38,030 nucleotides of DNA from an uncultured Lachnospiraceae bacterium. GTDB lineage: Bacteria > Bacillota > Clostridia > Lachnospirales > Lachnospiraceae. The stretch spans positions 1-38,030 of the forward strand of contig ONHG01000024.1 of assembly GCA_900317585.1 (NCBI GenBank). Direction: 5' to 3'. Positions 21,738 to 38,030 of this stretch are shown here, piece after piece. How positions within the stretch are numbered: the first letter of the stretch is position 1; the number at the start of each line of letters is the position of its first letter. The notes under the pieces were generated by a model. It had not been told where the DNA came from. It did no database searches and was given only the letters and a program-made list of their open reading frames with translations. The position numbers were made by a program, and so were the translations under genes.

Positions 21738-24700
21738 ATGAGAGTGTTTAATAAAAAACTTAACAGGTTACTAGCAATCATGCTAGCTTCTGTAATGGGT
21801 GCGACATCGCTTCCGGCAACACCGGTAAGTGCTGATACACCCTCTTCAGAGTATGATATATCTAACGACGCAGCTTCGGATGATATATCTGACAGTAAAA
21901 TTCCAGATGAACGGGATTCGGATAATAATGCCACCGAGGAAAAACAGCCACAGAAGCTGACGGTAGAGTATACACCGGCGGATGATATTTATGTGGGGAA
22001 CAAAGTTGTTCCGGTGGTAAAATCCGACAGGGCGGATGCAGCCGTTGACAATTTAAAATACACTGTTGTAGAAGGCAAAAATCTGATTGAAAAGGATACA
22101 GACTTTGCATCAAACGGTATATGGACAGCAAAGGATACCGGAACTGTAAGGATAAAGGTGACAAAAGCAGAAGATGACAAATATAAGTCAGCAGAGGCAG
22201 AATATACTGTCACCATCAAAGAATGTGATTACAGCAGTATGAATAACAGCCTGACAGGGACAATGCTGCAGGGTACACAGTTTTATGTAGAAGCACCTAC
22301 ATTATCGCTGGCAAGTGACAATCAGGCGGTATATGTGGTTAGAAAAGGTGATGAATGGATTGAAGCTGATAAATATCAGCTTATGCCACAGCAGGGTGAT
22401 AACAGACAGACTCTTGTAATAGCACGTAAGGACAAGGAAAGCGGAGCTATCACAGATATTGGAAGTCTGCAGCTCGACTACAAATATGATACACAGCCGC
22501 CAAAGATAACATTGAATCCAAAGGAGGATGATAAACCTGCTTTTACAAAGGATGCTGTGGATTATTATGGAAATGTCAGAAAAGTAGACATGAATATCCA
22601 CGATGTCTCTTTGGATGATGGTTCCACACAGCTTTGGGTAAAGGTTGATGACCGGGAAGAATTCGATGTATTTGATGTCGATAATGCCCAGAAGCTGATT
22701 GATGCAGGAATAGAGTATAGTGACTGGATCGTGACAGGGGCTGATTATAGCAGCTGCATCACATTTGGTACAAAAGCTGATGAGGAACACAAATATCAGA
22801 TAATCAGAATGTATGCGAAGGATCAGGCGGAGCATGAGTGTAATGATACAAGCTCAATAGAGCAGCCGTTTTATGTGGATAGAAAAGCGCCTTCAGGTAC
22901 TATTGGATATGATGCTGATTTAATAGACGAGCAGAATATGGTCAGTCAGCAGGCATCAAATGTATATGGACAGCTGGAGGATATCAGCGGAATAAAGCAG
23001 GCATTCTACTATGTGAATAAATCAGATGAAAGTGGCAGTATTTTAAATGATGAGCAGGTAAAAGCGCTTGATGATTCAGCATGGAAGCCGTTAGAGCTTA
23101 TTGAGGATACATATGATGCCCGATATAAGTACAAGATTAATACATCTGATCTGAAGGATACTTCATATAACGTATATGTAAAGGCTCAGGACAATTGTAA
23201 TGGCGAGACAGCATTTTTCTCCACATCGAAGCTGGTTGTTGATACCCTGCCACCGGAGCTTACAGTGTCCCAGGATACCATGACAGCAGCCGATGAAAAA
23301 GGCTGGCATAAGGATGATATAAGCTATATCGTTAAGGCTGATGACAGCTTATCAGGAATTAAGAGTGTTGAATACACTGTATTTGATGGGAAAAGGAAAA
23401 TTGTATCAGGACAGACTGTTGAGCTTGACGAGAGCGGGGAAGGAAGGATAACCATTCCGGCAGCAGAGCAGTTTAACGGAATTGATCTGATGCTTTCAGT
23501 AAAGGCAACTGATTATGCCGGTCTTAAGACAGAGGTTAAAGGTGACAGCTTTAAGTTCAGCATGGACAGTCAGTCACCTGATGTCAGTATAGAGCCGGAA
23601 GCGGGCAAAAACAGAAAATATTTCAATGACGATGTCCGTATAAAAACAAATGTAGCTGACAGCCTTTCAGGTGTTGTATCAGCAAAATACCAGATAGTGA
23701 CAGATGATCAGTCCGTATCGGATGATGAAGGTGCATGGAATGAGCTTGATGAATCAGGAATCATAAATGTATCGGCTGAGGCTTATCTGGATAAAAAGGC
23801 AGATGTATATGTTAAAGCTGTTGATGAGGCAGGAAACGTGACTGTAGCGGATTTGACAGCAAGCGGCAGCCAGCCATTTTATATTCACAAGGCAGCGCCT
23901 GCAATAACAGTGACATATGGTACACCTGAGCAGCCGGATCCACAGTGCATCAGCAGTGTAAAAGGCACTGAGTATTACAGGGAAAACAGGATTGCAACCA
24001 TTTCGGTAAAAGAGAATGAGCTTTTCTTTGACCCCGATGAAACAAAAATCAATGTAAAGGTTGATGGAAATGAACAGACACAGTCAGATGCATGGTCTGA
24101 AAAGTCATACTGGGTAAAGACAGGCGAGGGAGCAGAAGCTGTTTACAGTAAGCAGCTCGTATTCAATGCAGGACACAAGTATGAGCTGAGTGTCAGTGCA
24201 AAAGATTTGTGTGGTAATTCAGATAATGGATTTGAGATAGAAGGAGACAAATCAGCAGAGTTTGTAATTGACGTACAGTCGCCGACAGGAAATATCAGGT
24301 TTGACGGACTTTCAACAGGCATGGATACCGTGTGGGATTTATTGCTGCCAAAAGACAAATATGAGATTTCAAGATTTGCTGCCAAGAAGGTCAATATTGC
24401 CGGACAGCTTGGAGATGAGCATAGCGGCATCAAGTCAGCAGAGTATTTCGTTTCAGCAGAGGATGCAATAATTGACGTAGACAGTATTCAGGAGGCTGAC
24501 TGGAAGACACTTGACAGCCTTAATGAGGATGGCACCTTCAGTGAACCGATAGAATGCGAGAACAAAAACTGCGTGGTATATGTCAGGGTTACAGATTTAA
24601 GCGGTAATGTTTCATATATCAGCACAAATGGATTGGTAGTTGATACATGCGCACCGGCAATATCAGTCATCACACCTGAGACAGCATCAGGAGTGTACAG

Positions 24701-26921
24701 TGCAGATGTGCCGGTAAGTATAGAGGTATCAGATGAGAATGCCACAGGAGTTGCATCAGGAATAAAGAACGTAAACTATACGGTAACAAATATGGGACAG
24801 CCGACACAGGATGGAACATTATATAGCTATGATAAGACAGCAGCGGGCTTAAAAGATCTGGAAAATCATGTAACAGAGCAATTTGACATAAGAGCGGATT
24901 CAAACAACAGTAATGAAGTGCGTATAGATGTTACCGCAACAGACAATGCAGGAACGGCATACACAGTAACAAAATACATAAAAATAGATACAACAGCACC
25001 AACAGTGCAGGTAAGCTATGACAATAACAGTGCAGATACATCATTTGGAGACACAGCATACTTCAAAGCACCGCGAACAGCAACCGTAAAAGTAACAGAG
25101 CGTAACTTTGATGCATCAAAGGTAGCAGCGGAAATAAAAGCCGCAGCAGGTAAGGCACCTGCTCTTTCAGACTGGAGCACAGAAGGTGGAAGCGGTAACG
25201 GTGATGATACAGTACATGTTGCCACAATATATTACGGACATGATGACGATTACACATTTGGAATCGGAGTAAAAGACATTGCGGGAAATGCCGCAGCAGG
25301 AGTGGATTATGCAAATTCGCTTGCACCGACAAAATTTACAATTGATACGACAGCACCTGTTATTTCGGTAGCATATGATAACAACAGTGCATCAAACGGA
25401 AACTATTATAATAAAAAGAGAATAGCAACTGTGACAATCACAGAGCACAATTTTGATACAAGCAGAATAGCACTGAGCATGACTGCGCAGGATGCAGGAA
25501 AATCAGTAGCAGCACCGGCATTTGGAAGCTGGTCAGATAATGGTGATATACATACGGCAACATTAAGCTTTGATGCGGATGCCACATATACATGGTCACT
25601 TGCATATACAGACAAAGCCGGCAATAAGGCAAAAGACCTTGCAAAGCAGGAGTTCTGCATAGATACGACAAAGCCTGTTGTAACAATCAACGGAGTAACC
25701 CCGGGCTCAGTAAACAATAATTCAGGAAACATGTCATTTGTAATAGAGTGCACAGATACTAATCTTGAATACTTTTCACCGGTGCTTACAGTTGAGGTAT
25801 ATGAAAATGGCAGATTCGTAAGAAAAACGATTACCGGAAATGTGATATCAATTACAAACGGACAACGTGTAGAGTTTAGAAATCTCAATGAGGATGGAGT
25901 GTATTCACTGACATGCCATGCACAGGATAAGGCCGAAAATTCTTATGAAACAGTCAATATTATAGATGCAGGCGGAAAGCAGGTGACAGAGACTGCAGGG
26001 CAGGGAGAAAAATTGATGGATTTCTCCATAAACAAAGGCGGTTCAATCTTCTCGCTGGATGACAATACGATGAAGCTTGTAAAGGATTACTATGTGCAGA
26101 AGGTATACCATGATGTGGTAGTCAGAGAGATAAATCCGGATGAAGTTACCAGCTGTACTGTCAAAGTAAATGGAAAAGCACTTAAGCAGGGAACAGACTT
26201 CAGTGTGAATAATGTAAGTGAAAGCGATGGCTGGCATAAGTACGAATATGTGATATCAAATGCGGTATTTGAAAAAGAGGGTCAGTACAATATCGTTGTG
26301 GAGACAAAGGACAAAGCAGATTCAGTTGCCTACAGTGATGTGAAGAGTGTAAATATTGAATTTATTGTGGACAAGACAGCACCTACATATACATTGACAG
26401 GTGTAGATGAAAACAATGAAAACTATATTGGCTCAAAGAATGCAGTATTGATGCCGAAGGATGATGGTGGAAAGCTTGGACGTGTAAAGATTACTGTAGT
26501 GGGCAAGGATGACAAAGAAAAAAAGGTTATCAAGGAAATGTCGGGAGACGATATGCTTGACTATCTGGACAAGCATGACGGAAAGATAGAGTTTGAAGTA
26601 CCTAAGGAGGTGCTCTCTGCAAAAGACGGTGATTCAAGGCTTATGGTAGAGTGTGCAGACTGTTCTGTTGACGAAGGTGGAAAGACCAATGAAGTGAAAA
26701 AAATATATGGTAAGGATACAGAAGCAGATACAGAGATTGCCGAAGATGATGTACCTATGGAATCAAATTCGTCAGATGTCAAATCAGTAGAAACAAACAA
26801 TGATAAGGCAGTATATATAATTGGAGCAATATTATTATTTGTACTTATAATTGCGATATTGATAATCGTTTATTATATGAGAAAAAAGATGAAAGAAAAG
26901 AAAGACAATGATGAGCAATAA
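21738..26921 (+). CDS. Giant Ig-repeat surface protein with C-terminal membrane anchor
   Basis: A 1727-residue exported protein, the first gene of the type VII cluster. Seen: a signal peptide with cleavage near VSA/D (residue 33), then about ten Ig-like modules, each opened by a (V/I)DxxxP linker, for example near residues 380, 501, 1083, 1202, 1308 and about 1540. Two neighbouring modules share SYDNNSADTS/AYDNNSASNG and TERNFDASKV/TEHNFDTSRI. One membrane segment (GAILLFVLIIAILIIVYY) lies near 1690-1713, followed by a basic cytoplasmic tail; there is no LPXTG signal. It overlaps the next gene by 14 bases. Its role is unknown: by position and topology it could replace the large EsaA/YueB subunit, or act as an adhesin. 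AGGAG is only 2 bases from ATG 21738 but 8 from the in-frame GTG at 21744, which may be the true start. Confidence 0.85.
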   Translation: MRVFNKKLNRLLAIMLASVMGATSLPATPVSADTPSSEYDISNDAASDDISDSKIPDERDSDNNATEEKQPQKLTVEYTPADDIYVGNKVVPVVKSDRADAAVDNLKYTVVEGKNLIEKDTDFASNGIWTAKDTGTVRIKVTKAEDDKYKSAEAEYTVTIKECDYSSMNNSLTGTMLQGTQFYVEAPTLSLASDNQAVYVVRKGDEWIEADKYQLMPQQGDNRQTLVIARKDKESGAITDIGSLQLDYKYDTQPPKITLNPKEDDKPAFTKDAVDYYGNVRKVDMNIHDVSLDDGSTQLWVKVDDREEFDVFDVDNAQKLIDAGIEYSDWIVTGADYSSCITFGTKADEEHKYQIIRMYAKDQAEHECNDTSSIEQPFYVDRKAPSGTIGYDADLIDEQNMVSQQASNVYGQLEDISGIKQAFYYVNKSDESGSILNDEQVKALDDSAWKPLELIEDTYDARYKYKINTSDLKDTSYNVYVKAQDNCNGETAFFSTSKLVVDTLPPELTVSQDTMTAADEKGWHKDDISYIVKADDSLSGIKSVEYTVFDGKRKIVSGQTVELDESGEGRITIPAAEQFNGIDLMLSVKATDYAGLKTEVKGDSFKFSMDSQSPDVSIEPEAGKNRKYFNDDVRIKTNVADSLSGVVSAKYQIVTDDQSVSDDEGAWNELDESGIINVSAEAYLDKKADVYVKAVDEAGNVTVADLTASGSQPFYIHKAAPAITVTYGTPEQPDPQCISSVKGTEYYRENRIATISVKENELFFDPDETKINVKVDGNEQTQSDAWSEKSYWVKTGEGAEAVYSKQLVFNAGHKYELSVSAKDLCGNSDNGFEIEGDKSAEFVIDVQSPTGNIRFDGLSTGMDTVWDLLLPKDKYEISRFAAKKVNIAGQLGDEHSGIKSAEYFVSAEDAIIDVDSIQEADWKTLDSLNEDGTFSEPIECENKNCVVYVRVTDLSGNVSYISTNGLVVDTCAPAISVITPETASGVYSADVPVSIEVSDENATGVASGIKNVNYTVTNMGQPTQDGTLYSYDKTAAGLKDLENHVTEQFDIRADSNNSNEVRIDVTATDNAGTAYTVTKYIKIDTTAPTVQVSYDNNSADTSFGDTAYFKAPRTATVKVTERNFDASKVAAEIKAAAGKAPALSDWSTEGGSGNGDDTVHVATIYYGHDDDYTFGIGVKDIAGNAAAGVDYANSLAPTKFTIDTTAPVISVAYDNNSASNGNYYNKKRIATVTITEHNFDTSRIALSMTAQDAGKSVAAPAFGSWSDNGDIHTATLSFDADATYTWSLAYTDKAGNKAKDLAKQEFCIDTTKPVVTINGVTPGSVNNNSGNMSFVIECTDTNLEYFSPVLTVEVYENGRFVRKTITGNVISITNGQRVEFRNLNEDGVYSLTCHAQDKAENSYETVNIIDAGGKQVTETAGQGEKLMDFSINKGGSIFSLDDNTMKLVKDYYVQKVYHDVVVREINPDEVTSCTVKVNGKALKQGTDFSVNNVSESDGWHKYEYVISNAVFEKEGQYNIVVETKDKADSVAYSDVKSVNIEFIVDKTAPTYTLTGVDENNENYIGSKNAVLMPKDDGGKLGRVKITVVGKDDKEKKVIKEMSGDDMLDYLDKHDGKIEFEVPKEVLSAKDGDSRLMVECADCSVDEGGKTNEVKKIYGKDTEADTEIAEDDVPMESNSSDVKSVETNNDKAVYIIGAILLFVLIIAILIIVYYMRKKMKEKKDNDEQ

Positions 26922-27888
26922 GATAATTACCTATGTATTTACATCACCATGTGGTGGTGTGGGAAAAACAACAATGTCTGTGGCATGCGCGAAAGCGCAT
27001 GCCCTTCAAGGCAGACGGATATTATATGTGAACTGTGATAATTTTGAAAAAGCACAGGATTATTTCAATGGAGAAAGCAATATTGAAACCACTGATGCAG
27101 GCGTTAAAATCTGGGAAACGATAGAATCGGAAAAAGATAAGACATATGATGAGATGATTGTAAATATGCCATTTCAGGGAAATGATACCGAGTTTAAAAT
27201 GATAAAAAATGCAGATGAGCTTATACTTATCAGCACGGCAACAAAGGAGGTAAATGACAGGCTGAAAAGATGTCTTGAGGTATTGCCGCCGGAGGAATAC
27301 GAAGACAGGCTATCCATATTATACAATAACTTTGATAACGAAAAATCAATAATGTTTGATGATTTCCCGGGGGTAGTACTGGGCGGAGCACCGCGGATTG
27401 AAGAAGCAGATATGCAGAGCGTTATAAATGTAATGACAGATATGAATTTCTTTAACATTCTGTCAAAAATAACAGCTGAGAAAGAACGCAAGCTGCATGA
27501 TGCACTTATGTATGGAGAGACTACTGTTCTGGAGGAAAGCCTTAATCCTGAGCTACAGCCGCAGATGGGAGAGACCACCGTACTTATGCATCCGTATCTG
27601 GTGAGAATGAAAAACGGTGAAAGAATTTCTATCAATAAAGCACATTTTCTGATAGGAAAAGAGCACAGCAGTGTGGACTATTTTGTGAGCGATAATGCAG
27701 CGGTCAGCAGAAGGCATGCGGAAATTGTGACAAAAAACTCAGATTTCTATATAGTGGACAAGCGTTCAACAAATCATACATATATCAATGGCATGATAAT
27801 TGCTGAGGAAACACCTGTCAGACTCAGAAACGGAGCACATATAAGACTGGGCAACGAAGATTTTGAATTCTGGGAGGAGTGTGTATGA
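26908..27888 (+). CDS. ParA/MinD-like ATPase fused to a C-terminal FHA domain
   Basis: A 326-residue cytoplasmic protein. The N-terminal part has a P-loop TSPCGGVGKTT (residues 12-22) and the MinD/CpaE-like order of strands (ILYVNCDNF, YDEMIVNMPF, ADELILISTAT). The signature Lys of the deviant Walker motif (KGGVGKT) is Cys15 here. Two copies of GETTVL follow at residues 203-208 and 221-226, then an FHA domain (about 243-320) with LIGK, the phosphothreonine-contacting SRRH and NHTYING. The family role would be membrane positioning plus recognition of a phosphorylated partner. The gene overlaps the Ig-repeat gene by 14 bases and the PP2C gene by 4 (ATGA), so translation is coupled. A second in-frame ATG follows at 26911. 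The localisation partner is unknown. Confidence 0.85.
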   Translation: MMSNKIITYVFTSPCGGVGKTTMSVACAKAHALQGRRILYVNCDNFEKAQDYFNGESNIETTDAGVKIWETIESEKDKTYDEMIVNMPFQGNDTEFKMIKNADELILISTATKEVNDRLKRCLEVLPPEEYEDRLSILYNNFDNEKSIMFDDFPGVVLGGAPRIEEADMQSVINVMTDMNFFNILSKITAEKERKLHDALMYGETTVLEESLNPELQPQMGETTVLMHPYLVRMKNGERISINKAHFLIGKEHSSVDYFVSDNAAVSRRHAEIVTKNSDFYIVDKRSTNHTYINGMIIAEETPVRLRNGAHIRLGNEDFEFWEECV

Positions 27889-28661
27889 GATTTGAAATAG
27901 CAGCTGACACGGACAGAGGAATCGTAAAAGAAACTAATCAGGATAGTCTGTTGGTAAAGTGCTTCTCAACATGCAAAGGAGACATGGCATTTGCAGTATT
28001 ATGTGACGGCATGGGCGGCTTATCGAAGGGTGAGCTGGCCAGTGCCACTGTAGTCAGAGCATTTGACAGATGGAGTGACGAGCAGCTGCCTGAGCTTTGC
28101 AAATCGTCGAACCCGGATATTGACAGTCTGATTCTGGAAAGACAGTGGGATGAAGTAATACAGCAGCAGAACGAAAAAATAAAAGCATATGGCAAAGCAC
28201 ATGCAGTAAACATGGGAACAACAGTGGTAGCGCTGCTTGTCACGCAAAAAGCCTACTACATTATAAACGTGGGTGATTCCAGAATATATAGCCTTTCAGA
28301 CCATATAGAAAGGCTTACGACAGACCAGACATATGTACAGCGGGAAATTATGAATGGAAATATGACACAGGAGCAGGCTATGAAAGACCCGCGAAGGAAT
28401 GTACTGCTGCAGTGTGTCGGGGCATCAGCAGAGGTAAAGCCGGAGTACAGGACCGGGGCAATGAAAAATGGAATGTCACTTCTGCTTTGTTCAGATGGCT
28501 TCAGGCATGAGGTATCAGAACCGGAAATCTATGAGATGCTGAAACCGGCAGCAGCTGTAGACGGGCAGAATATGCACGACAGACTGGAGCAGCTCATCAG
28601 ACTCAGCATGCAAAGAGGAGAGCGCGATAATATAACAGCAGCGCTCATAAAGGCACAGTAG
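27885..28661 (+). CDS. PP2C-type Ser/Thr protein phosphatase (PrpC/PstP-like)
   Basis: A 258-residue metal-dependent phosphatase expected to reverse phosphorylation by the next gene's kinase. All PP2C motifs are present: TDRGIVKETNQDSL, VLCDGMGGLSKGE, MGTTVVALLV, INVGDSRIYSL, MTQEQAMKDPRRNVLLQCVGA, LLLCSDGF and RDNITAALI, including the metal-binding aspartates. The start is ATG 27885, 7 bases after GGAGG and overlapping the previous stop as ATGA; a GTG at 27879 lies too close to the ribosome site. No membrane segment is present, so it acts in the cytoplasm. Phosphatase-kinase pairing is common in Firmicutes, but being placed inside a secretion cluster ties it to that system. Confidence 0.93.
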   Translation: MRFEIAADTDRGIVKETNQDSLLVKCFSTCKGDMAFAVLCDGMGGLSKGELASATVVRAFDRWSDEQLPELCKSSNPDIDSLILERQWDEVIQQQNEKIKAYGKAHAVNMGTTVVALLVTQKAYYIINVGDSRIYSLSDHIERLTTDQTYVQREIMNGNMTQEQAMKDPRRNVLLQCVGASAEVKPEYRTGAMKNGMSLLLCSDGFRHEVSEPEIYEMLKPAAAVDGQNMHDRLEQLIRLSMQRGERDNITAALIKAQ

Positions 28662-28670
28662 GAGGAACAG

Positions 28671-30368
28671 ATGCTTGAAATAGGCTCTTTAATTGACGGA
28701 AAATACAAGATACTAAACGAAGTTGGACACGGCGGAATGAGCGTTGTGTACCTGGCTATGAATGAAAGGGCAAACAAACAGTGGGCAATAAAAGAGGTCA
28801 GAAAGGATGGAGTAAAGGATTTTGAGGTGGTAAAGCAAAGTCTTGTTGCGGAGACCAATATGCTCAAAAAACTGAGTCATCCCAGTCTTCCTGATATTGT
28901 CGATGTCATAGATGAGGATGACAGATTCCTTATCGTAATGGATTATATAGAGGGAAATTCTCTCAAGACAGCATTGCAGGAGTATGGAGTCCAGTCGCAG
29001 AAAAATGTGATAAAGTGGGCCAAACAGCTATGCGATGTTCTTGGATATCTGCACTCACAGAACCCGCCAATCATATATCGTGATATGAAGCCGGCAAACA
29101 TAATGCTAAAGCCTGATGGAAATGTGGTGCTTATAGATTTTGGAACAGCAAGGGAATATAAGGAAAATAACATAGAGGATACAACATGTCTTGGCACGAT
29201 GGGATATGCTGCACCGGAACAGTTTGGTGGAATGGGGCAGACAGACGCGAGAACAGATATATATTGTCTGGGAGCCACAATGTATCATCTTGTTACGGGA
29301 ATGAATCCCTGTGAGCCACCTTACGAAATAAGGCCGATCAGAGAAATTGACCCAACATTGTCAGGTGGTCTTGAACGTATTATTACAAAGTGTACACAGC
29401 CGGATCCAAACAACAGATATCAGAGCGCAGCTGAGCTGATGTATGACCTTGAGCACTATACAGAGATTGATGACATGTATAGGAAGAATCTAAAGAGAAA
29501 GCTTGCGGTATTTATCACCACATCAGCTTTGACGATGCTGCTTGGAACAAGCACAGTATTAAGCTATTGTGCGGCAGAACACAAAAAAAATGAAAATTAT
29601 AATAGCATATTAAAAGAAGCGGATACCTATGACAATTATGACAATGGATATTACACGGCTATAGTCACCGACCCGACAAGGACGGAGGCATATCTTAAGC
29701 TGAATGACAAACTGACAGACGATTTTGTGCTGGACAGGGATGAGGCGCAGATATTGAACAGGCTGATGGTAGGTATAGATTGCAAGGACCACAATGGCCG
29801 GGTGCATACATATGATGTCATGGCAAAGCTGAAAGAAAAAAATCCAAAGGGATATGAGGATGTATGCTATAAGATTGGTGAAAGCTTTTTATTCTACTAC
29901 GAAATCAATGTGGAAAAAGACAGATACTCCAGTGCGGCGCAGTGGTTCAAGGAAGCGAAGGAGAATCATCCGGAGGCAGGAATATACTGTGAGATATCAG
30001 ATTGTCTGACATTGATTAGCCAGTATGATGGAGCAAAGATACAACAGACAGAAAAAACATATGAAGAATACGAAAAGCTATGGAAGCAAATAAATGAGCT
30101 ATATGCAAAATCAGAGGATTTTGACAGCATAGACGCAAAGATTCAGGTATGGAATGAGATAGATGATATAGTTGACACAAATATCACATCATTTATAGCA
30201 GTGACAGATAAGGATAAAGTTATGGATTTATTACATACGATAAAGGACAAAACAGAAAAGCTGGATAAATCCATAATGCGCGAGCAGATAACAGGATTGC
30301 AGGATAATATAGACAAAACAATTGAGAAGGCACAGAGCGTGAAGGAGGAAAACAAAGATGACTTATAA
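28671..30368 (+). CDS. Transmembrane Ser/Thr protein kinase with novel external domain
   Basis: A 565-residue Hanks-type kinase. The cytoplasmic domain (1 to about 270) is complete: Gly loop GHGGMSVVYLA, Lys40 in AIKEV, catalytic YRDMKPANIML (Asp near 137), IDFGTA, an activation segment rich in Thr (NNIEDTTCLGTMGYAAPEQ), and DIYCLGATMYHLVTG. One membrane segment (about 278-300) follows a basic KNLKRKL. The outer region of about 260 residues is helical and charged and has no PASTA repeats, unlike PrkC, so it senses something else, possibly the secretion apparatus or the Ig-repeat protein. AGGAGG is shared with the end of the PP2C gene (9-base gap). The next gene overlaps by 11 bases. Confidence 0.93.
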   Translation: MLEIGSLIDGKYKILNEVGHGGMSVVYLAMNERANKQWAIKEVRKDGVKDFEVVKQSLVAETNMLKKLSHPSLPDIVDVIDEDDRFLIVMDYIEGNSLKTALQEYGVQSQKNVIKWAKQLCDVLGYLHSQNPPIIYRDMKPANIMLKPDGNVVLIDFGTAREYKENNIEDTTCLGTMGYAAPEQFGGMGQTDARTDIYCLGATMYHLVTGMNPCEPPYEIRPIREIDPTLSGGLERIITKCTQPDPNNRYQSAAELMYDLEHYTEIDDMYRKNLKRKLAVFITTSALTMLLGTSTVLSYCAAEHKKNENYNSILKEADTYDNYDNGYYTAIVTDPTRTEAYLKLNDKLTDDFVLDRDEAQILNRLMVGIDCKDHNGRVHTYDVMAKLKEKNPKGYEDVCYKIGESFLFYYEINVEKDRYSSAAQWFKEAKENHPEAGIYCEISDCLTLISQYDGAKIQQTEKTYEEYEKLWKQINELYAKSEDFDSIDAKIQVWNEIDDIVDTNITSFIAVTDKDKVMDLLHTIKDKTEKLDKSIMREQITGLQDNIDKTIEKAQSVKEENKDDL

Positions 30369-30807
30369 TCTGTACAGGATGATATTTTACGTATCCTTCA
30401 CGGCATTTGCCATAATGCTTATAGCTTCAATAGTCATATTTATAGTGCTTGAAATACCGAAGGTCATAGGTGCACTTACAGGAAAATCTGCCCGGAAAGG
30501 AATTGCAGCAATTGTACAAAAGCAGACAGCGGGACATATTGACATAACATCGTCCGGTCCCATAGCACCGTCATATAACCTGGCAGGGGAGAATAAGAAA
30601 AAGCCGGGATATACACAAAAGATAGATGAAACTACTGTGCTGGCTGCACCGACAGAAGTATTGCAGGATGAAACCATAGTATTGGAAGATATAACCGAAA
30701 AGCTGCAGAAAACCAATATCAGGTTCGAAGTGACAAAGAAAATAGAATTTATACATACGACAGAATGTATCTCAGAAGGAATGGAAAATAGCGAATGTCC
30801 AAATTAA
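30358..30807 (+). CDS. Small bitopic membrane protein with repeated threonine motifs
   Basis: A 149-residue protein I do not recognise. Seen: one N-terminal membrane segment (about residues 8-32, rich in Ile and Phe) and a cytoplasmic tail. The tail holds DETTVLAAP (E91-L95) and DETIVLED (E105-L109). They match the GETTVL pair in the ATPase-FHA protein and resemble the ETT phosphorylation motifs of GarA/OdhI-type FHA partners. This makes it a candidate kinase substrate that recruits FHA proteins to the membrane. It overlaps the kinase gene by 11 bases and the next gene by 13. Its size and topology also recall EssA, but no sequence match is visible. Confidence 0.75.
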   Translation: MTYNLYRMIFYVSFTAFAIMLIASIVIFIVLEIPKVIGALTGKSARKGIAAIVQKQTAGHIDITSSGPIAPSYNLAGENKKKPGYTQKIDETTVLAAPTEVLQDETIVLEDITEKLQKTNIRFEVTKKIEFIHTTECISEGMENSECPN

Positions 30808-31790
30808 AAGTAAGCATAAAAAAATCGACCGTTACTGCCATGATGAAGGCAGGACGAAAGGAAAGAATAAATGAAACCGAACTAAGCCAGCTAGCCAGAA
30901 TAAAACCATGTGGAATCATGCATGTGACAAAAACAAAAAAAGACAGTGTCACATATACGTGCCCTGCAAATATAAATCTTACCGATAGATTGAAAAAAGC
31001 CGTAAGCAAATATGATTTCTTTTTTATGATGGAGCAGATAGTAATAATGGTTCAGGATGTATACAATAACGGACTGAACGTAAACAGTGTTCGTTTTAAT
31101 ATGGATGACGTATACATAAACGAGATGACAAAAGAGATGTATTTTATATATTTTCCGATAGTAGGAGGACAGGAAAGTGCAGATATTGTCGGATTTATAG
31201 AAAACATAATTTATACAATGACACCTGTTATCAATGAGGATACGAATTATATATCCAGATTTATGTATTATGTCAGGAGCTTTCACGGATTCAATGGTAA
31301 TGCGATAGAAAAATATATCTCACGCGAAGAGCGTGCAGTTGTGAACGTGCTGAAAAACACAGCAGTGACAATGCAGCAGACAATGCAGCAACAGATAATG
31401 CAGCAGGTAATGCAGGGCAGCATGGATGGAACTACAGTGTTGTCAGATGATGGCATATCCGTACAGCAGATACAGCAGATGCAACCGGTGAACTATCATT
31501 TTGCAAGTCTTACAAGGCAGGTAACAGATGAAAAGATAGAGCTTTGCAAACCGTCGTTTGTGCTGGGAAAGAATCCGGAAAAGTCAGATTATGCGGTAGC
31601 AGACAATACGAATATCAGCAGGGTGCATGCAGTGATAACCACGCGAAACGGGCGTTATTATGTAATGGACCAAAATTCTACCAATGGCACATTTATCAAT
31701 GGAAGGATAATAAAGGCGGGGCAGGAAACAGAGATATTACCGGGAGACTGTCTGATGTTAGCTAATGAGGAATTTATATTTAATGAATAG
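30795..31790 (+). CDS. DUF6382-like domain plus FHA protein, possible EssB counterpart
   Basis: A 331-residue protein without membrane segments. The first 190 residues look like the DUF6382 region that often precedes FHA domains; they contain FFFMMEQIVIMVQDVYNNGL, VRFNMDDVYINEMTKEMYFIYFPI and a helical tail. That layout also resembles the pseudokinase N-terminal domain of EssB/YukC, an inference from pattern only. A Gln/Met-rich linker follows, then GTTVLSDDG (residues 212-216 are GTTVL), then an FHA domain (about 250-331) with LGK, NISRVHAV and NSTNGTFINGR. The ATG lies inside the end of the previous gene (13-base overlap). The FHA should bind phosphothreonine, possibly the TTVL sites. Confidence 0.8.
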   Translation: MSKLKVSIKKSTVTAMMKAGRKERINETELSQLARIKPCGIMHVTKTKKDSVTYTCPANINLTDRLKKAVSKYDFFFMMEQIVIMVQDVYNNGLNVNSVRFNMDDVYINEMTKEMYFIYFPIVGGQESADIVGFIENIIYTMTPVINEDTNYISRFMYYVRSFHGFNGNAIEKYISREERAVVNVLKNTAVTMQQTMQQQIMQQVMQGSMDGTTVLSDDGISVQQIQQMQPVNYHFASLTRQVTDEKIELCKPSFVLGKNPEKSDYAVADNTNISRVHAVITTRNGRYYVMDQNSTNGTFINGRIIKAGQETEILPGDCLMLANEEFIFNE

Positions 31791-31810
31791 AAAAGTATTG
31801 GAGTGCGAAA

Positions 31811-32068
31811 ATGGATGAGAATGAAAAGAAAATAGTAAATTTTATAGACGAAATCAGGGGACAGACACACGAGTTGGAGATACCCCTAAATATATCTGCA
31901 AATACTTTAATAATAGCATTAAAAAGAGCATATGATTTAAATTTAGATGAGAATAATACTACAGAGTGTTATATGGCATGTGAATATCCAATAGCATTTT
32001 TAAAAGGGAACAGGACACTTGCAGATTTTGGAATCAGAAATGGTTCATCAATTATATTCAGGAGATAA
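31811..32068 (+). CDS. esaB: YukD/EsaB ubiquitin-like type VII secretion protein
   Basis: An 85-residue ubiquitin-fold protein. Seen: an N-terminal beta hairpin (IVNFIDEIRGQTHELEIPLN), the helix ANTLIIALKRAYDL, and the C-terminal TLADFGIRNGSSIIFRR typical of YukD/EsaB. In Staphylococcus aureus and B. subtilis it is a required cytoplasmic type VII component and usually lies next to essC, as here. GGAG precedes the ATG by about 9 bases. The stop shares one base with the essC ATG at 32068. Confidence 0.92.
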   Translation: MDENEKKIVNFIDEIRGQTHELEIPLNISANTLIIALKRAYDLNLDENNTTECYMACEYPIAFLKGNRTLADFGIRNGSSIIFRR

Positions 32069-35000
32069 TGAAAATGGATAATTTTGGATGGTCAATAGCT
32101 TTAGTTCCGGGAACACCTCTTATTATAGGAGATACGCCGGATGCTCATATACAGCTGCAGGGGGCTTATGGAAGGGCAGCAAGAATAGCATTGCAGATCG
32201 ATAAAAGCATGATGTATTCGATACTATCAAAGTATGGTGGTGATTACGATACATGTGTTAATGATAAAATAATACAGAAATCCGCTAAGATAAATAATCA
32301 TGACTTTATATCGATAGGTGATTTTATGGCATATTACAATAGAGGAAAGATTTATTTTGATTATGGAGTTATCAAAACTAATGGTGTAGATGTCAGACCG
32401 GAAAGTATGAGTATACAGACAACATACCCTGTTTTTATTCGTAATACCAGGATACAGGTGAAAATGGATGAGACTCCGATAGATATACTTGAACCCGGAA
32501 CTGTACCTAAAAAGCCAGAATTAAATCTGATTACAACATTGTTTCCACCAGTATTTATGATGGCAATGATGATGTTGCTTAAAGGTACAATGAGCGGATC
32601 AAGTAGTTCATTTATGATGTTTAGTGTATGTTCAATGGGAGTGGGTGTACTTACATCAATATTTGGTATTGTAAACAGAGAAAAGCAGTATAAGAAGACT
32701 TGTATTGAACGACAAGATACTTATAAATTATATATCGAAAAGAAACGTAAAGAAATTGAGAATATTCGAAGAGAGGAGCTGGATTGCCTAAATGATCAGT
32801 ATTACAGTACAGTACAGGATATAAGTCATATAGAAAATTTTGATACAACTTTGTTTGACCGTATTCCAACAGATCATGATTTTCTGGAAGTGTACTTAGG
32901 ACGTGGAAATGTAGAGTCATTACGTCAGATTAATTATAAGAAACAGGAGAAGCTGGAGGTTGGAGATGAATTAAGTTGTATTCCAAATCATGTTGCCGAT
33001 GAATACAGAGATATAGAAAAAGCCCCTCTTACATTGAGTCTCAGGGATGCTAATGCTGTTGGAATAGTGGGTAATGAAGAATCACTTTATTGCATGATGA
33101 AAAATATAATAGTGGATATAATAAGTAGGCAATATTATGGAGATATTAATCTTTATGCATTGATAGATAAGGATGAAAAAAAATACAAATGGTTAAAAAA
33201 CCTAAAATCAATACAGGGAACCGGAGGATGTCGAAATATAGTTTGTGATCAGGAAAGCAGAAACAGGGTGTTCGATAATCTCTATAAAGAGCTGACATTG
33301 AGACAGGATGAAAATACAAGTGGAAGATTTAATATTGTCGTTGTTATGGAAGACTATGGAATAAAAAGTCATCCAATTTCTAAGTTTATAGAGCATGCTT
33401 CAGAACTTGATACAGTATTTTTGTTTTTTGAGTCAAAGCTTTCACTGTTGCCACTTTACTGTAGTCATATCATAGATATATTTGATTATGAGAGTGCCAT
33501 GGTATATGATTCGCAGAATAAGATGCATAAGAAATACTTTGAGTATGAGAGTATAGATGATGAAAGTATGGAAAATATAGTCCGCATTCTGGCACCGGTA
33601 GAGTGTGAAGAAATCAGTCTTGCAGGAGCATTGAGAAAAAATATTTCATTGTTTGAACTTCTTGGAGTTAATTCAGTGGAAGGATTGAATCTTGATAGCA
33701 GATGGGAAAATTCAAAGATATATGAGACGATGGCTGTGCCACTTGGTGTAAATGTTAAGGATGAAATAGTGTATCTGAATCTTCATGAAAAATTTCATGG
33801 ACCGCACGGACTTGTGGCAGGAACAACGGGTTCTGGAAAAAGCGAGATTTTGCAGACATTTATACTTGGAGCAGCTACATTGTTTCATCCATATGAGATT
33901 GGATTTTTGATAATTGATTTCAAAGGAGGAGGAATGGTAAATCAGTTCAAGGATTTACCACATCTGATTGGAGCTATAACTAATATAGATGGAAATGAAG
34001 TACAGAGATCGTTAAAATCTATCAAAGCAGAGCTTATGAAGCGGCAAAATTATTTTGCGGAGGCCGGTGTAAATCACATAGATAAATATATTCAGTTATA
34101 TAAAGAGCATAAGGTATCTGAGCCATTGCCACATCTTGTGATAATAGTTGATGAATTTGCAGAACTTAAAGCAGAACAGCCTGAATTTATGAAGGAGCTT
34201 ATCAGTACAGCACGAATAGGTCGAAGTCTTGGGGTTCATCTTATACTGGCCACTCAAAAACCAAGTGGAGTTGTAGATGGACAAATATGGTCAAATTCAA
34301 AGTTTAAGCTGTGTTTGAAGGTGCAATCAAAAGAGGATAGTAATGAAGTATTAAAAACACCATTGGCGGCTGAAATAAAGGAACCAGGACGTGCTTATCT
34401 CCAAGTTGGAAATAATGAAATATTCGAGTTACTACAGTCAGCATACAGTGGGGCAGCGGCTGTATCAGAAGGGGAAGAAGATAAGGAATTTTCAATTTAT
34501 GAGTTGGATTTTTCTGGCAAAAGAAGTCTTGTTTATCAGAATAAGAAGAAAAAACAGAAAAGCAAAACACAGTTGGAAGCAGTTGTGGATTATATAAAAG
34601 ATTTTTGTGAGCAGACAGGTATAGAGAGGCTGCCAAGTATATGTATGCCACCGCTTCCGGAAACAATTGCTTATGAACAGTCAGAGAAAAAGTCAGGAAG
34701 TGAAATATGGGTAAACATAGGTATAGTTGATGAACCGGAGCGTCAGCTTCAGGAAAAACTGGAATTAAATCTTTCAACGCAGAATTATATGATTATAGGT
34801 TCAGCACAGAGTGGAAAGACTAATCTGTTACAGACAATCATAAGAGGAGTAGCTGAAAATTATACTCCTCAGGAGGTTAATTTATATATCATAGATTTTG
34901 GTTCCATGATATTGAGAAACTATGCAAATTTAAATCATTGTGGAGGAGTGGTATGTTCTGATGATGATGAAAAGCTGAAGAATCTGTTTAAATTATTGAA

Positions 35001-36252
35001 TAAAGAGATTAATTTAAGAAAGGAAAAACTTGCAGAGATAGGTGTAAGCTCATTTTTGGCATATAAGGAAGCCGGAAAAACAGACCTTCCACAGATAATT
35101 GTCCTGATAGATAATATGACAGCTTTAAAGGAGATGTATTTACAGGATATAGATTATTTATTGCCTTTATTCAGGGATGGAATTGCTGTTGGAATGACAT
35201 TTGTAGTAGCTAATTTACAGACATCCGGAATTGGACAGAGGTATCTAAGCAATTTTGAAGGAAGAATAACATTGTTTTGTAATGACTCTTCAGAATACAG
35301 TATGATGTTAAACGGAGTACGTTTGTCTATTCCTAATACACCGGGACGATGCATGGTGCAGTTGGATAAAGAAGTATTGGAGGCACAATTGTTTATATCA
35401 TTTGAGGGAGAAAAAGAATATGAACGTGTACAGAAGATAAAGAGTTTTGTCGATGAGCAAAACGATAAATATATAAATCAAAAAGCAAAAGTTATTCCAG
35501 AAATTCCAAAAGAACTGACATTGACATATATTCAGTCACAATTTACGGAAAGCATAAGTGATGACAAAGTGATAATAGGTCTGGATTATACAAATATATT
35601 ACCGGTGGCAGTTGAATTAAAGAGCGGAGATGTGCTCTCCCTGACAGGAAAGAATCAGACAGACAGGGAGACTTTTGCAAAATATTTCATGGATACAATT
35701 GTTCAAAAGGCATCCGGCAATACGGAGCTGTATGTATTGGATGATGCGACAAAGAAAATGGGAGAATGTGAATTTAATCCTAACACCGCAATGTATCTGA
35801 CCTCATATCATGATGTACCACCTATGATTGAGGAAATAAATCAGAGAATTGAGCAACGATATGAGATGTATTCGGCAGGAATGTTTGACGAGTTAGAGAT
35901 GGAACCATGGATTATTCTTGTGATAGATAGTGCAGATATCATGTTGAATATGAGTGGAGATAATAAAATAATGAAATATATGAAGGACTGGCTCGGTAAA
36001 TATAAGAACATGAAAATATTCGTATTTATGCCAGATATAGAAAATAATTCTATCAGCTTTAATTCTCCTGAGATGCTTAAGATAGTGAAAGATAACAGGC
36101 ATTACATGGTATTTGATGATGTATGTAATATTAAGATATGTGACATCTCAGTTAGTGCAAGTAAAAAATATTCAAAACCTATAGAGACAGGGGATGCTTA
36201 TTATATAAAGGACAATGAATTGGTAAAGATTAAAGTTGTCAGACAATCATGA
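32068..36252 (+). CDS. essC: EssC/YukB-type FtsK/SpoIIIE ATPase of type VII secretion
   Basis: A 1394-residue membrane ATPase that drives substrate export. Seen: N-terminal FHA-like region (about 1-120), two membrane segments (about 153-173 and 181-202), a linker domain, then three FtsK-type ATPase domains. D1 has Walker A GTTGSGKS (585-592) and Walker B HLVIIVDEFAEL. D2 has GSAQSGKT (911-918) and IIVLIDNMTAL. D3 is degenerate: its P-loop position reads LTGKNQTD near 1192 and lacks GK[ST], while WIILVIDSAD remains. This is the standard EssC layout. AGGAG is 3 bases from ATG 32068 and 9 from the in-frame ATG at 32074, which is probably the true start. The gene is AT richer than the genes before 31800. 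Confidence 0.95.
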   Translation: MKMDNFGWSIALVPGTPLIIGDTPDAHIQLQGAYGRAARIALQIDKSMMYSILSKYGGDYDTCVNDKIIQKSAKINNHDFISIGDFMAYYNRGKIYFDYGVIKTNGVDVRPESMSIQTTYPVFIRNTRIQVKMDETPIDILEPGTVPKKPELNLITTLFPPVFMMAMMMLLKGTMSGSSSSFMMFSVCSMGVGVLTSIFGIVNREKQYKKTCIERQDTYKLYIEKKRKEIENIRREELDCLNDQYYSTVQDISHIENFDTTLFDRIPTDHDFLEVYLGRGNVESLRQINYKKQEKLEVGDELSCIPNHVADEYRDIEKAPLTLSLRDANAVGIVGNEESLYCMMKNIIVDIISRQYYGDINLYALIDKDEKKYKWLKNLKSIQGTGGCRNIVCDQESRNRVFDNLYKELTLRQDENTSGRFNIVVVMEDYGIKSHPISKFIEHASELDTVFLFFESKLSLLPLYCSHIIDIFDYESAMVYDSQNKMHKKYFEYESIDDESMENIVRILAPVECEEISLAGALRKNISLFELLGVNSVEGLNLDSRWENSKIYETMAVPLGVNVKDEIVYLNLHEKFHGPHGLVAGTTGSGKSEILQTFILGAATLFHPYEIGFLIIDFKGGGMVNQFKDLPHLIGAITNIDGNEVQRSLKSIKAELMKRQNYFAEAGVNHIDKYIQLYKEHKVSEPLPHLVIIVDEFAELKAEQPEFMKELISTARIGRSLGVHLILATQKPSGVVDGQIWSNSKFKLCLKVQSKEDSNEVLKTPLAAEIKEPGRAYLQVGNNEIFELLQSAYSGAAAVSEGEEDKEFSIYELDFSGKRSLVYQNKKKKQKSKTQLEAVVDYIKDFCEQTGIERLPSICMPPLPETIAYEQSEKKSGSEIWVNIGIVDEPERQLQEKLELNLSTQNYMIIGSAQSGKTNLLQTIIRGVAENYTPQEVNLYIIDFGSMILRNYANLNHCGGVVCSDDDEKLKNLFKLLNKEINLRKEKLAEIGVSSFLAYKEAGKTDLPQIIVLIDNMTALKEMYLQDIDYLLPLFRDGIAVGMTFVVANLQTSGIGQRYLSNFEGRITLFCNDSSEYSMMLNGVRLSIPNTPGRCMVQLDKEVLEAQLFISFEGEKEYERVQKIKSFVDEQNDKYINQKAKVIPEIPKELTLTYIQSQFTESISDDKVIIGLDYTNILPVAVELKSGDVLSLTGKNQTDRETFAKYFMDTIVQKASGNTELYVLDDATKKMGECEFNPNTAMYLTSYHDVPPMIEEINQRIEQRYEMYSAGMFDELEMEPWIILVIDSADIMLNMSGDNKIMKYMKDWLGKYKNMKIFVFMPDIENNSISFNSPEMLKIVKDNRHYMVFDDVCNIKICDISVSASKKYSKPIETGDAYYIKDNELVKIKVVRQS

Positions 36253-36306
36253 TGGAATACTGCTTAGCAGTTTTACCATAAATAAATTTAAAGGAGGCCA
36301 ATGAAA

Positions 36307-36600
36307 ATGGCAATTAACAAAGTCGATTATGACGTATTAACAACAGGAGTATCAGTATACTCAAATCAGGCGGGAGCAATTGATGATGTCATCAAAACCC
36401 TCGTAAATATGAATGGACAGTTACAGGATGGATGGACAAACCAGACAGCCGATGCATTCATCGAGAGATTCGAAAGTGAATACAAGCCTGCCCTTTATAA
36501 GGTAGAAGAAGCTGTACAGAGTATTTCTGATTTCATCAACAGCTACATGCAGAACAGACAGGACGATGATGCAAGAGGAGCCGCAGCAGTAAGAGGCTAA
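36307..36600 (+). CDS. WXG100 family type VII secretion protein (EsxA-like)
   Basis: A small secreted helical-hairpin protein of 97 residues, the hallmark substrate and activator of EssC. Seen: helix 1 (VDYDVLTTGVSVYSNQAGAID), a turn with DGWTNQTADAF where W-x-G is changed to W-T-N, and helix 2 with SEYKPALYKVEEAVQSISDFI, then a polar tail. AGGAGG (36292-36297) is 9 bases from ATG 36307 and only 3 from an upstream ATG at 36301, so 36307 is preferred. The strong ribosome site, preferred codons and a following stable hairpin suggest higher expression than its neighbours. Only one WXG100 gene is visible, so a homodimer is likely. Confidence 0.92.
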   Translation: MAINKVDYDVLTTGVSVYSNQAGAIDDVIKTLVNMNGQLQDGWTNQTADAFIERFESEYKPALYKVEEAVQSISDFINSYMQNRQDDDARGAAAVRG

Positions 36601-36613
36601 TCAGAGTCATTTT

Positions 36614-36651
36614 TTGAAGGTAAATGCGGCATTTGCCGCATTTACCTTCAA
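36614..36651 (+). promoter_or_regulatory. Stable hairpin after the WXG100 gene
   Basis: A perfect 17-bp stem (36614-36630 with 36635-36651) with loop ATTT starts 14 bases after the stop and is followed by AATATCC, not a T run. It probably protects the 3' end of an abundant WXG100 message or gives partial termination, as proposed for the hairpin after malE. Confidence 0.7.
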
Positions 36652-36689
36652 TATCCTATATGAGAATGAATGATAAGGAGAATAATGCA

Positions 36690-37892
36690 ATGGTACGAGA
36701 CTTTTCAGGCGAGGCAAAACAGGAACTCCTGCAATATGTGGATAGTATAATATCAAAACAAAGATGGGAAGAAATAGCAAATACAATAGTATTTTATAAT
36801 GTCAGTATTCCCGTTATAGTTAGCCGATTGGGAATTAAGGAATGTATAGATAGTGTTGGAAATTATTATAGTAATTTGATCAATAAAAACAAGGCAACAA
36901 AACGGCAGATAGAAGAAATATTTGCAAATGTACAAAGCGTAGACACAAAATATATGGGAAAACTCTCACAGTATATAAATACAGGAAACCTGTGGGTTAA
37001 ATATATAGATGATCTTTCGGGGTTAATTGATCCGAATGGCGGAAATCTTGATATTAAAAAATATAAAGCAATTTTGGATGCGGATAAAGAGAAATTGAAT
37101 GCAGCAAATATGAGTGTGGTTAAAACACTTGTAAGTGATGGAAAAGTGGATGAAGCAACTGATTATGTGGATGTAGTTGATAATCTTGATTTGACATATG
37201 ATGAATTTATGGCGTTAAGCGATGAGGAGAAGATGGCATATTTAAGTGGAACTTCTAATTGGCTGACTACATTATATCCTAATGTTGAAATGGAAGAGGG
37301 AATATATGAGATAACGGTACCGCTCGGTGTGGATATGTCTGCTACTTATAATGTAACGGTATCGGGCTCAGTAGAGACTGATAGCAGTGAAACTATAAAT
37401 GTAACGATTGATCAGCAGCAGATAGTGCTTGCTAATGCACAGAAATTTGAGATTGAAAATTTATCAGCGGAAATGAATAGTGATGGAGTAAGTTTTTCAA
37501 ATGAATGGGATAATAAAAAGATAAAAGCAGGTATTGAAAAAGATGGAAAAATATTTTTAAATTCCGTAATAAAAAATGGAAAATCTGAAATGAAATATGG
37601 AGGTTCGTTAGATGTATCTTCAATATCAATACAATGCGAAGTTACAACACAATTAGAACAAAATTTAGCAGTAACTTCAAGTGTCAAACTTGAAAAATCA
37701 AATAATGTGGATATGAAAAATTGGAGTGCAGTGAGAGTAGAAGAGGAAAAAGAAAATTTAGATCAAGTATATTGGGAAATGGATCCATTATATAGAGACT
37801 CAAGTATGAGAAAAGCAGAAATATTTATGGCAGATGGAGTTTCTTTGACTCAGATACTAGAAACTTTAATGCGGTTGGCACAGTATATTTAA
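36690..37892 (+). CDS. Unrecognised protein downstream of WXG100, candidate type VII substrate
   Basis: A 400-residue protein that I do not recognise. The N-terminal half (to about residue 180) is helical and begins DFSGEAKQELLQYVDSIIS, containing VIVSRLGIKECIDSVGNYYSNLI. The second half is beta rich with many Val/Ser/Asn, for example ATYNVTVSGSVETDSSETIN. No signal peptide is seen, as expected for a type VII substrate, and there is no LXG motif I can identify. Its start is ATG 36690, 9 bases after AAGGAG; earlier in-frame ATGs lie in the hairpin. The gene is very AT rich, unlike the metabolic genes of the window, suggesting a variable cargo region. A structural role is also possible. Confidence 0.6.
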   Translation: MVRDFSGEAKQELLQYVDSIISKQRWEEIANTIVFYNVSIPVIVSRLGIKECIDSVGNYYSNLINKNKATKRQIEEIFANVQSVDTKYMGKLSQYINTGNLWVKYIDDLSGLIDPNGGNLDIKKYKAILDADKEKLNAANMSVVKTLVSDGKVDEATDYVDVVDNLDLTYDEFMALSDEEKMAYLSGTSNWLTTLYPNVEMEEGIYEITVPLGVDMSATYNVTVSGSVETDSSETINVTIDQQQIVLANAQKFEIENLSAEMNSDGVSFSNEWDNKKIKAGIEKDGKIFLNSVIKNGKSEMKYGGSLDVSSISIQCEVTTQLEQNLAVTSSVKLEKSNNVDMKNWSAVRVEEEKENLDQVYWEMDPLYRDSSMRKAEIFMADGVSLTQILETLMRLAQYI

Positions 37893-37916
37893 TGAGAATG
37901 AAGGGAGTAAATTATA

Positions 37917-38030
37917 GTGAAAAAATATGTCAGCACAATTATTTTTATATCTATTATAGTAATATCAGTATTAATGGGAGTTAGACAGTATAAAAATGAT
38001 GAGAGCTTAAAATCTAAAGAAAATGAACCT
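37917..38030 (+). CDS. Start of an exported or membrane protein (cut by window end)
   Basis: A GTG start 9 bases after AAGGGAG opens a frame of 38 codons that runs off the window. The product begins MKKYVSTIIFISIIVISVLM, a signal peptide or membrane anchor, followed by a charged stretch (RQYKNDESLKSKEN). It lies 24 bases after the previous stop in the same direction. It could be a small lipid-free exported partner or immunity-type membrane protein; nothing more can be said. Confidence 0.6.
   Translation, partial: MKKYVSTIIFISIIVISVLMGVRQYKNDESLKSKENEP

Follow-up and report, generated by a model that had tools for sequence, protein, structure and literature searches.

Subtypes T7SSc to T7SSj of the type VII secretion system (T7SS) have been described by Garrett, Higginson and Palmer (2024; PMC11217815), and the available part of that article, to which all statements on published subtypes made here refer, lists for both T7SSe and T7SSj a kinase (D), a PP2C phosphatase (F), an Ig-repeat anchor (I), a DUF6382-FHA protein (J) and a small membrane protein (K). 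EsaA, EssA and EssB are absent from the component lists given there for T7SSe, T7SSf and T7SSj, control by threonine phosphorylation is suggested, no acceptor site is named in that part of the text, and Tad genes are noted beside T7SSg and T7SSh. Beyond this article, no mention of DUF6382 or of the term T7SSe was found in the literature searched. Here we analyze a gene run on contig ONHG01000024.1 of an uncultured gut Lachnospiraceae bacterium (assembly GCA_900317585.1), the entire contig of 38,030 nucleotides being referred to as the window. In our assessment, this run probably encodes a secretion system of the T7SSf/j kind equipped with a closed phosphothreonine circuit, in which arrays of a [DE]TxxL motif propose acceptor sites besides the writer, eraser and readers. 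New here are the motif arrays in K, the occurrence of the motif in the linkers of the reader proteins and in the activation loop of the kinase, the presence of the cassette next to Tad genes and a possible kinship of DUF6382 with EssB.

The run comprises ten genes (21738-37892), all on the forward strand, and from I through EssC (21738-36252) adjacent genes overlap or lie at most 20 bases apart. The gene run and domains given in a first-pass annotation made from the sequence alone were borne out in coordinates, strand and Pfam/NCBIfam matches, with the DUF6382 and YukD matches falling slightly under their cut-offs. In the order I, ParA-FHA, F, D, K, J, B, C, A, S, the genes are:

21738..26921, + strand: I, Ig-repeat surface protein of 1727 amino acids (Big_3_3, 39.7 bits, Pfam)
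26908..27888, + strand: ParA-FHA, ParA/MinD-type ATPase fused to an FHA domain (CbiA 31.9 bits, FHA 59.5 bits)
27879..28661, + strand: F, PP2C-type phosphatase with a GTG start, putative eraser (PP2C_2 52.2 bits; NF033484 184 bits, below its cut-off of 230)
28671..30368, + strand: D, membrane Ser/Thr kinase, putative writer (Pkinase 164.6 bits)
30358..30807, + strand: K, small protein with a hydrophobic N-terminal stretch (about residues 5-35) and a TxxL tail; no Pfam/NCBIfam family matched
30795..31790, + strand: J, DUF6382 plus FHA, putative reader (FHA 57.5 bits; DUF6382 26.0 bits, slightly below its cut-off of 26.7)
31811..32068, + strand: B, YukD/EsaB ubiquitin-like protein (PF08817 24.5 bits, slightly below its cut-off of 27)
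32068..36252, + strand: C, EssC ATPase of 1394 amino acids (TIGR03928 1139 bits, cut-off 778)
36301..36600, + strand: A, WXG100 protein (36.9 bits, cut-off 27.3)
36624..37892, + strand: S, probable secreted substrate of 422 amino acids with N-terminal similarity to proteins beside T7SS genes; no Pfam/NCBIfam family matched

The window is the whole of contig C37 and ends at 38030, with genes further downstream out of sight, and the assembly is 86.6% complete. Relatives of the locus were drawn from the best 80 of 192 EssC stretches, annotated by means of profiles built up from the proteins of the window, and from a second set formed by genomes of the host genus, in which EssC was found at E 1e-50 in 9 of 60 genomes, the window's own counted. 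I, the counterpart of TsdI/TseI/TsjI, has a signal-like N-terminus (judged by eye) and, in a hydropathy scan, a single C-terminal membrane helix at about residues 1687-1710; its family is present in 31 of 81 loci, and relatives of B in 75 of them.

With an EssC/EccC ATPase and a WXG100 protein, the window has the pair that makes up the broad criterion for a type VII system and, judged by its gene list, it is a known though little-studied kind of T7SS (T7SSf/j), closest to T7SSj. T7SSj, described in Clostridium, shares A, B, C, D, F, I, J and K at one locus with the window. The Lachnospiraceae locus differs from it in adding ParA-FHA and in an EssC with one FHA-like domain that shows no phosphothreonine residues by eye in a 12-sequence N-terminal alignment, whereas the EssC FHA of T7SSj keeps the phosphothreonine motif. 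The T7SSj kinase has TPR in its C-terminus; window D gave no TPR match at E 0.1 with Pfam/NCBIfam. T7SSj has no H, and the window run, for which no H profile was used and which is cut by the contig end at 38030, shows one small membrane protein. T7SSe has the same D, F, I, J and K set and the same phosphorylation idea, but its second WXG100 protein (TseA2) and second small membrane protein (H) are not seen in the window, A being the sole WXG100 protein at E 0.001 in the 86.6% complete assembly, on a contig that ends 1.4 kb past it; TseC also retains a phosphothreonine site that window EssC lacks. T7SSf has, like the window, F, J and no more than partly conserved phosphothreonine residues in EssC, and its TsfV is resembled in place and size by V, a protein of 350 amino acids with a C-terminal AAA_31 domain that lies beside B and C in relatives of the window (as in G449, with the order F-D-K-I-J-J2-V-B-C-A-S and AAA_31 at 126-283). 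TsfV combines a TadZ-like receiver with an AAA ATPase, whereas the window has ParA-FHA and no receiver domain; the Pfam TadZ receiver model had no match in V either. T7SSf is described without a kinase, whereas the window has D at 28671-30368 and K. With T7SSb the window has EssC, YukD and WXG100 in common, together with a profile likeness of DUF6382 to the EssB pseudokinase; unlike T7SSb, it lacks EsaA, EssA and EssB by profile and has a kinase and a phosphatase with catalytic residues. To our knowledge, the threonine phosphorylation pathway of the type VI secretion system (PpkA/PppA/Fha) has no multivalent TxxL tail. That pathway also places a kinase and an FHA protein at a secretion locus (PMC11217815 and PMC3953482, available parts), although the machine is unrelated to that of the window.

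The first-pass annotation had proposed a separate T7SS lineage with kinase, phosphatase and FHA genes, whose assembly or firing would be controlled by phosphorylation. The lineage is correct but already published as T7SSe and T7SSj (and, without the kinase, as T7SSf), and the phosphorylation idea had likewise been raised in PMC11217815; since both are in print, the main claim of the annotation is not new, and what the present analysis adds in its support is the TxxL arrays. Because these arrays name candidate sites, the idea becomes testable with peptides.

As read from its sequence, K is a putatively membrane-anchored tail of [DE]TxxL repeats that matches the phosphothreonine +3 rule of FHA domains. 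The window K carries TxxL sites at T92 (30631-30642), T99 (30652-30663), T106 (30673-30684) and T113 (30694-30705), and K relatives set side by side have little in common beyond the membrane stretch and the repeated motif, spelled TTVL, TELL, TDVL, TAPL or TVPL with T and L kept. Sites with an acidic residue before Thr and Leu at +3 were counted and compared with composition shuffles. When the 1,288 genes of the 81 loci are ranked by enrichment, K proteins take the first nine places (two being near copies), and K in these loci holds 81 sites against 8.5 expected. For 14 K sequences (5 of 17 omitted, L014, L040 and L076 as near copies and L011 and L073 set aside, with L123 and L125 added), Leu occurs at +3 in 68 cases against 6.4±2.4 expected (z 25), while counts at +1 and from +4 to +7 do not exceed chance and Ser in place of Thr gives 3 against 4.0. 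Because the motif was first noticed on K sequences, a held-out set was chosen by position alone, taking the open reading frame after kinase D in 19 neighborhoods, of which 17 were kept (L163 and L175 being the same records as L014 and L073). In this set, Leu at +3 was again strongly enriched (44 against 5.3 expected, z 18), and the Ser version was absent (0 against 4.6). Across 32 K tails (without L014, L076, L011, L073, L163 and L159), at least one acidic site is present in 31 and at least two in 25, and Leu occupies +3 in 113 of 180 acidic-Thr sites, 8.7 times its share in the tail composition. Leu or Val is also common at +2, part of that signal being TxLL. When the window's genome was searched in any frame with a back-translated ETTV(L/F), 7 matches were obtained, 3 of them in this cluster, and the reversed control pattern gave 21. 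As a separate observation, the TxxL array is followed in many K (e.g. L161, L164, L123) by a C-terminal sequence resembling (I/V)HT(D/E/N)E(I/V/T)I, which in the window K reads IHTTEC.

FHA domains bind phosphothreonine and not phosphoserine (PMC3146460, available part, whose reference list includes a Rad53 FHA2-pTXXL structure). The 107 FHA domains of these loci retain the pocket residues almost throughout (G in 107, S in 101, H in 106 and N in 104). The region before the FHA domain was then compared with the rest of the protein in 88 FHA proteins, non-redundant from 103, with the linker defined as residue 161 to the FHA start, which in big proteins exceeds the true linker. In the region so defined the motif is found 69 times against 14.2 expected (z 15.7), with counts at expectation in the first 160 residues (17 against 16.6) and in the FHA domain (7 against 6.6), and the Ser version before the FHA domain is likewise at expectation (16 against 16.2). 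TxxL is present in 56 of the 83 linkers of at least 10 residues; the linker of J has GTTVL (T213, 31431-31442) and that of ParA-FHA two ETTVL sites (27520-27531 and 27574-27585). The layout is that of the GarA/OdhI FHA switch, in which a Thr site lies in an extension or linker next to the FHA domain, GarA having an ETTS site outside the FHA domain that its own FHA binds when phosphorylated (PMC5448819, available part); GarA and OdhI are metabolic regulators, whereas here several FHA proteins accompany a membrane tail with arrays. By eye, the FHA-like domains of EssC in this group show no canonical phosphothreonine residues in the same 12-sequence alignment, and window EssC lacks the roughly 105 N-terminal residues (the first FHA-like domain) of relatives of about 1500 amino acids; the likely readers, on this evidence, are therefore J and ParA-FHA rather than EssC. 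A further enrichment in the first 160 residues of these FHA proteins, Thr with Leu at +5 (121 against 70), is unrelated to the acidic motif.

Kinase D keeps K41, R137-D138 and D156-F157-G158, invariant columns in an alignment with 4 relatives, and its activation loop (EDTTCLGT, 29175-29198) holds a TxxL motif. A pattern search found [DE](x)TxxL in 25 of 25 distinct activation loops, the comparison kinases being two D and two related ones, so that no unrelated kinase serves as control. From its one membrane helix, the C-terminal half of D is taken as extracytoplasmic. The circuit that we propose would start with D sensing the envelope through this outer half and switching itself on by phosphorylating its own activation loop. 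D would then phosphorylate the [DE]TxxL threonines of the K tail, the J linker and the ParA-FHA linker, and these sites, once phosphorylated, would be bound by J and ParA-FHA through their FHA domains. Multivalent binding to K may gather J and ParA-FHA at the membrane, while binding of either protein to its own linker site may shut it off, as in GarA/OdhI. J would carry this state to the EssC machine, probably by docking through its EssB-like DUF6382, F would erase the phosphorylation, I would span the wall, and the WXG100 protein and S would be exported.

The distribution of the kinase was assessed in 392 genomes of the order, counting D at a score of at least 464 bits (47 of the 74 genomes with D-type matches). 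D is present in 47 genomes and EssC in 82, and both occur together in 29 against 9.8 expected (p 6e-11), leaving 18 genomes with D and without EssC. The 19 D neighborhoods contain EssC, whole or partial, within the stretch taken in 6 cases, with EssC within 50 kb on the contig in 3 more, Tad genes in 4 and neither in the stretch in 6. At the second D copy of G411 and in G008, TadZ, a T2SSE ATPase, T2SSF proteins (one in G411 and two in G008, 23 bits each, slightly below the cut-off of 25.2), a TadE or TadE/G-like protein and a prepilin peptidase are followed by J-F-D-K-I; L164 (G765) has a prepilin peptidase, and L167 (G099) a prepilin peptidase and TadE. EssC was not found at E 1e-60 in G008 and G765 and lies elsewhere in the genome in G411 and G099. 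K at these Tad loci carries acidic sites as well (4 in G411, 2 in G008, 5 in G765 and 1 in G099). Since J-F-D-K-I adjoins Tad genes, in some genomes without EssC, the cassette looks portable by its gene neighborhoods. By title and start of abstract, no prior description of J-F-D-K-I beside Tad genes was found among the literature matches listed. From the Tad-adjacent cassette it seems possible that genes counted among the T7SS core form a control cassette of general use. The Tad locus of L167 (G099:C4, reverse strand 17728-19170) encodes a TadE-like protein with a C-terminal Pfam TNT domain (65.3 bits), possibly a pilin-borne effector domain.

The first-pass annotation also supposed that unfamiliar genes fill the missing core roles, and for one of them a profile comparison gives this specific, if weak, support. 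An hhalign comparison of 53 distinct DUF6382 sequences with eight EssB gave a match of 129 columns that covers the EssB pseudokinase, with E values between 0.00062 and 0.00095 and a probability of 22 to 28%. The next match after EssB was the D kinase domain (E 0.016, over the catalytic loop), and 25 decoys, including reversed alignments, gave E 0.18 or worse, the decoy families having at most 40 sequences each (EssC 25). For EssB against D, where kinship is expected, E was 0.0034 over 16 columns only, and smaller DUF6382 and EssB alignments gave a non-significant E of 0.09. The AlphaFold model of J (predicted local distance difference test, pLDDT, 87; predicted template modeling score 0.59) was used for a Foldseek search, in which the matches listed, the best 50 of 1777, are FHA and thus uninformative on DUF6382, and a PDB sequence search with DUF6382 found no EssB; the likeness to EssB therefore stays a lead. 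The same PDB search returned interferon beta (E 8e-5), which was taken as chance. DUF6382 of J thus resembles the EssB pseudokinase by profile, and J may fill EssB's place. EssB partners with the FHA-like region of EssC (PMC11217815, available part), and by analogy, if the likeness is right, J would replace EssB as the partner of that region. If it holds, the likeness would also tie T7SSb to the newer subtypes. A wider proposal, which we put forward tentatively and would not yet back at even stakes, is that D-F-K-J-I constitutes a portable multivalent phosphothreonine gate set upon at least two unrelated envelope machines of Clostridia (T7SS and Tad pili), in which K would serve as a scaffold tail anchored in the membrane, with a threshold set by how many pTxxL sites it has, and J would be a split-off EssB, FHA reader and pseudokinase adaptor in one, passing the phosphorylation state to the machine.

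ParA-FHA shows, by eye, a deviant Walker A motif with its first lysine replaced (CGGVGKTT) and a Walker B motif with its aspartate replaced (MIVNMP). Among 397 family genomes, with at most 5 candidates scored per genome, the full-length protein occurs only in the window's genome, and the other matches cover the FHA part, save two partial ATPase matches. In G411 (L159/L122), which is 98% identical to the window over I to J, the gene (L159:10684-10827) encodes just 47 residues, its two ends still readable, after an internal loss of about 830 bases. The notion that ParA-FHA is a conserved extra core component was accordingly rejected, and its reduction in G411 suggests that it is dispensable or lineage-specific. 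Identity between G411 and the window drops between J and B (window 31790-31810), reaching 74% over 2.6 kb from the B start (B and the first part of EssC), and in G411 B and EssC follow about 25 kb after J. This one pair suggests separate exchange of the two halves of the locus, one carrying the control genes and the other EssC.

Several observations weigh against a phosphothreonine circuit serving this secretion system, and some of them bear on the motif itself. The +3 spacing is the strongest yet not the sole one, Leu at +2 being enriched in the 14 K (21 against 6.3), in the held-out K (27 against 5.3) and in the FHA-protein linkers (51 against 13.9); the 14 K, unlike the held-out K, also show a mild excess of Ser with Leu at +6 (10 against 3.8), and 1 of the 32 K has no acidic site. 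The motif was defined on K, so the z values of the 1,288-gene and 14-K counts are inflated, and the held-out set retains L159, a near copy of the window, as well as related species. The residue after the pocket G, usually Arg in FHA domains, is Lys in 79 of the 107, a set collected by means of the FHA domains of the window itself, which favors shared residues. The TxxL sites might then be structural or low-complexity repeats, for instance a ladder for binding between K tails or to the membrane, an explanation that would suit tails that are repetitive and acidic, in which tandem duplication inflates counts, and that would accommodate Leu at +2. We nevertheless regard it as improbable, since the Ser version is not in excess in either K set, the varied spellings preserve T and L, and the motif recurs outside K, in the kinase activation loop and the linkers of FHA proteins.

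Other observations concern the tie to secretion. The first-pass annotation had held that routine occurrence of EssC-WXG100 without the kinase/FHA genes would speak against its reading, and this is in part what is found, EssC without D being common (53 of the 82 EssC genomes) and the kinase cassette adjoining Tad pilus genes as well. In G411, whose I to J region is nearly that of the window, most of ParA-FHA is lost and some 28 kb separate EssC from D; the presence of J at Tad loci that lack EssC counts against its taking EssB's place, and the genomes behind the co-occurrence of D and EssC are related rather than independent. The cassette could thus be a general phospho-relay for envelope stress or surface display that merely lies beside EssC and controls I or transcription instead of secretion, as its place next to Tad genes with no EssC in the stretch, the 18 of 47 D genomes without EssC and the 6 of 19 neighborhoods with neither partner would lead one to expect. 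This we consider unlikely, though clearly less so than structural repeats, given the compact gene arrangement that the cassette forms with B and C in the window, L006/L014, L123-L124 and L176, the position of K immediately before EssC in L177, and the strength of the D-EssC co-occurrence. Hardly credible is an ordinary T7SSb-like system with EsaA, EssA and EssB located elsewhere or in the portion that the assembly lacks. The assembly is indeed incomplete, and the EsaA profile gave two matches on contig C29 (60 and 50 bits), but these fall below half of the cut-off of 122; four control genomes match the profile as well (E 0.001), three of them with no match to the EssB profile, and the C29 pair are presumably YhgE/Pip-type proteins. 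EssB and EssA had no match at E 0.001 in the assembly, whereas the same searches match in B. subtilis, and the published lists for T7SSe, T7SSf and T7SSj, in the available part of PMC11217815, do without all three proteins. That EsaA, EssA and EssB are not recognizable here, as the first-pass annotation had it, thus stands, and a T7SSf/j-kind system under phosphothreonine control remains the reading that we favor.

S shares about 150 N-terminal residues with other T7SS-adjacent proteins, the remainder being variable. This domain lies at or near the N-terminus in several variable proteins, is internal in L023 and lies near the C-terminus in L025 and L044, where the matches are weak (E about 2e-4), a pattern as in forward and reversed T7SS substrates. 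A fold prediction of S was set aside (pLDDT 41), and promoter and terminator scans of the window, which yielded counts little above those of shuffles (70 against 61.3 and 12 against 7.9), were not used. Upstream of the locus, 17430-20222 encodes a protein of 930 amino acids in which EF-G-like GTPase domains are fused to a YacP-type NYN domain, and G411 shares this stretch at 98%.

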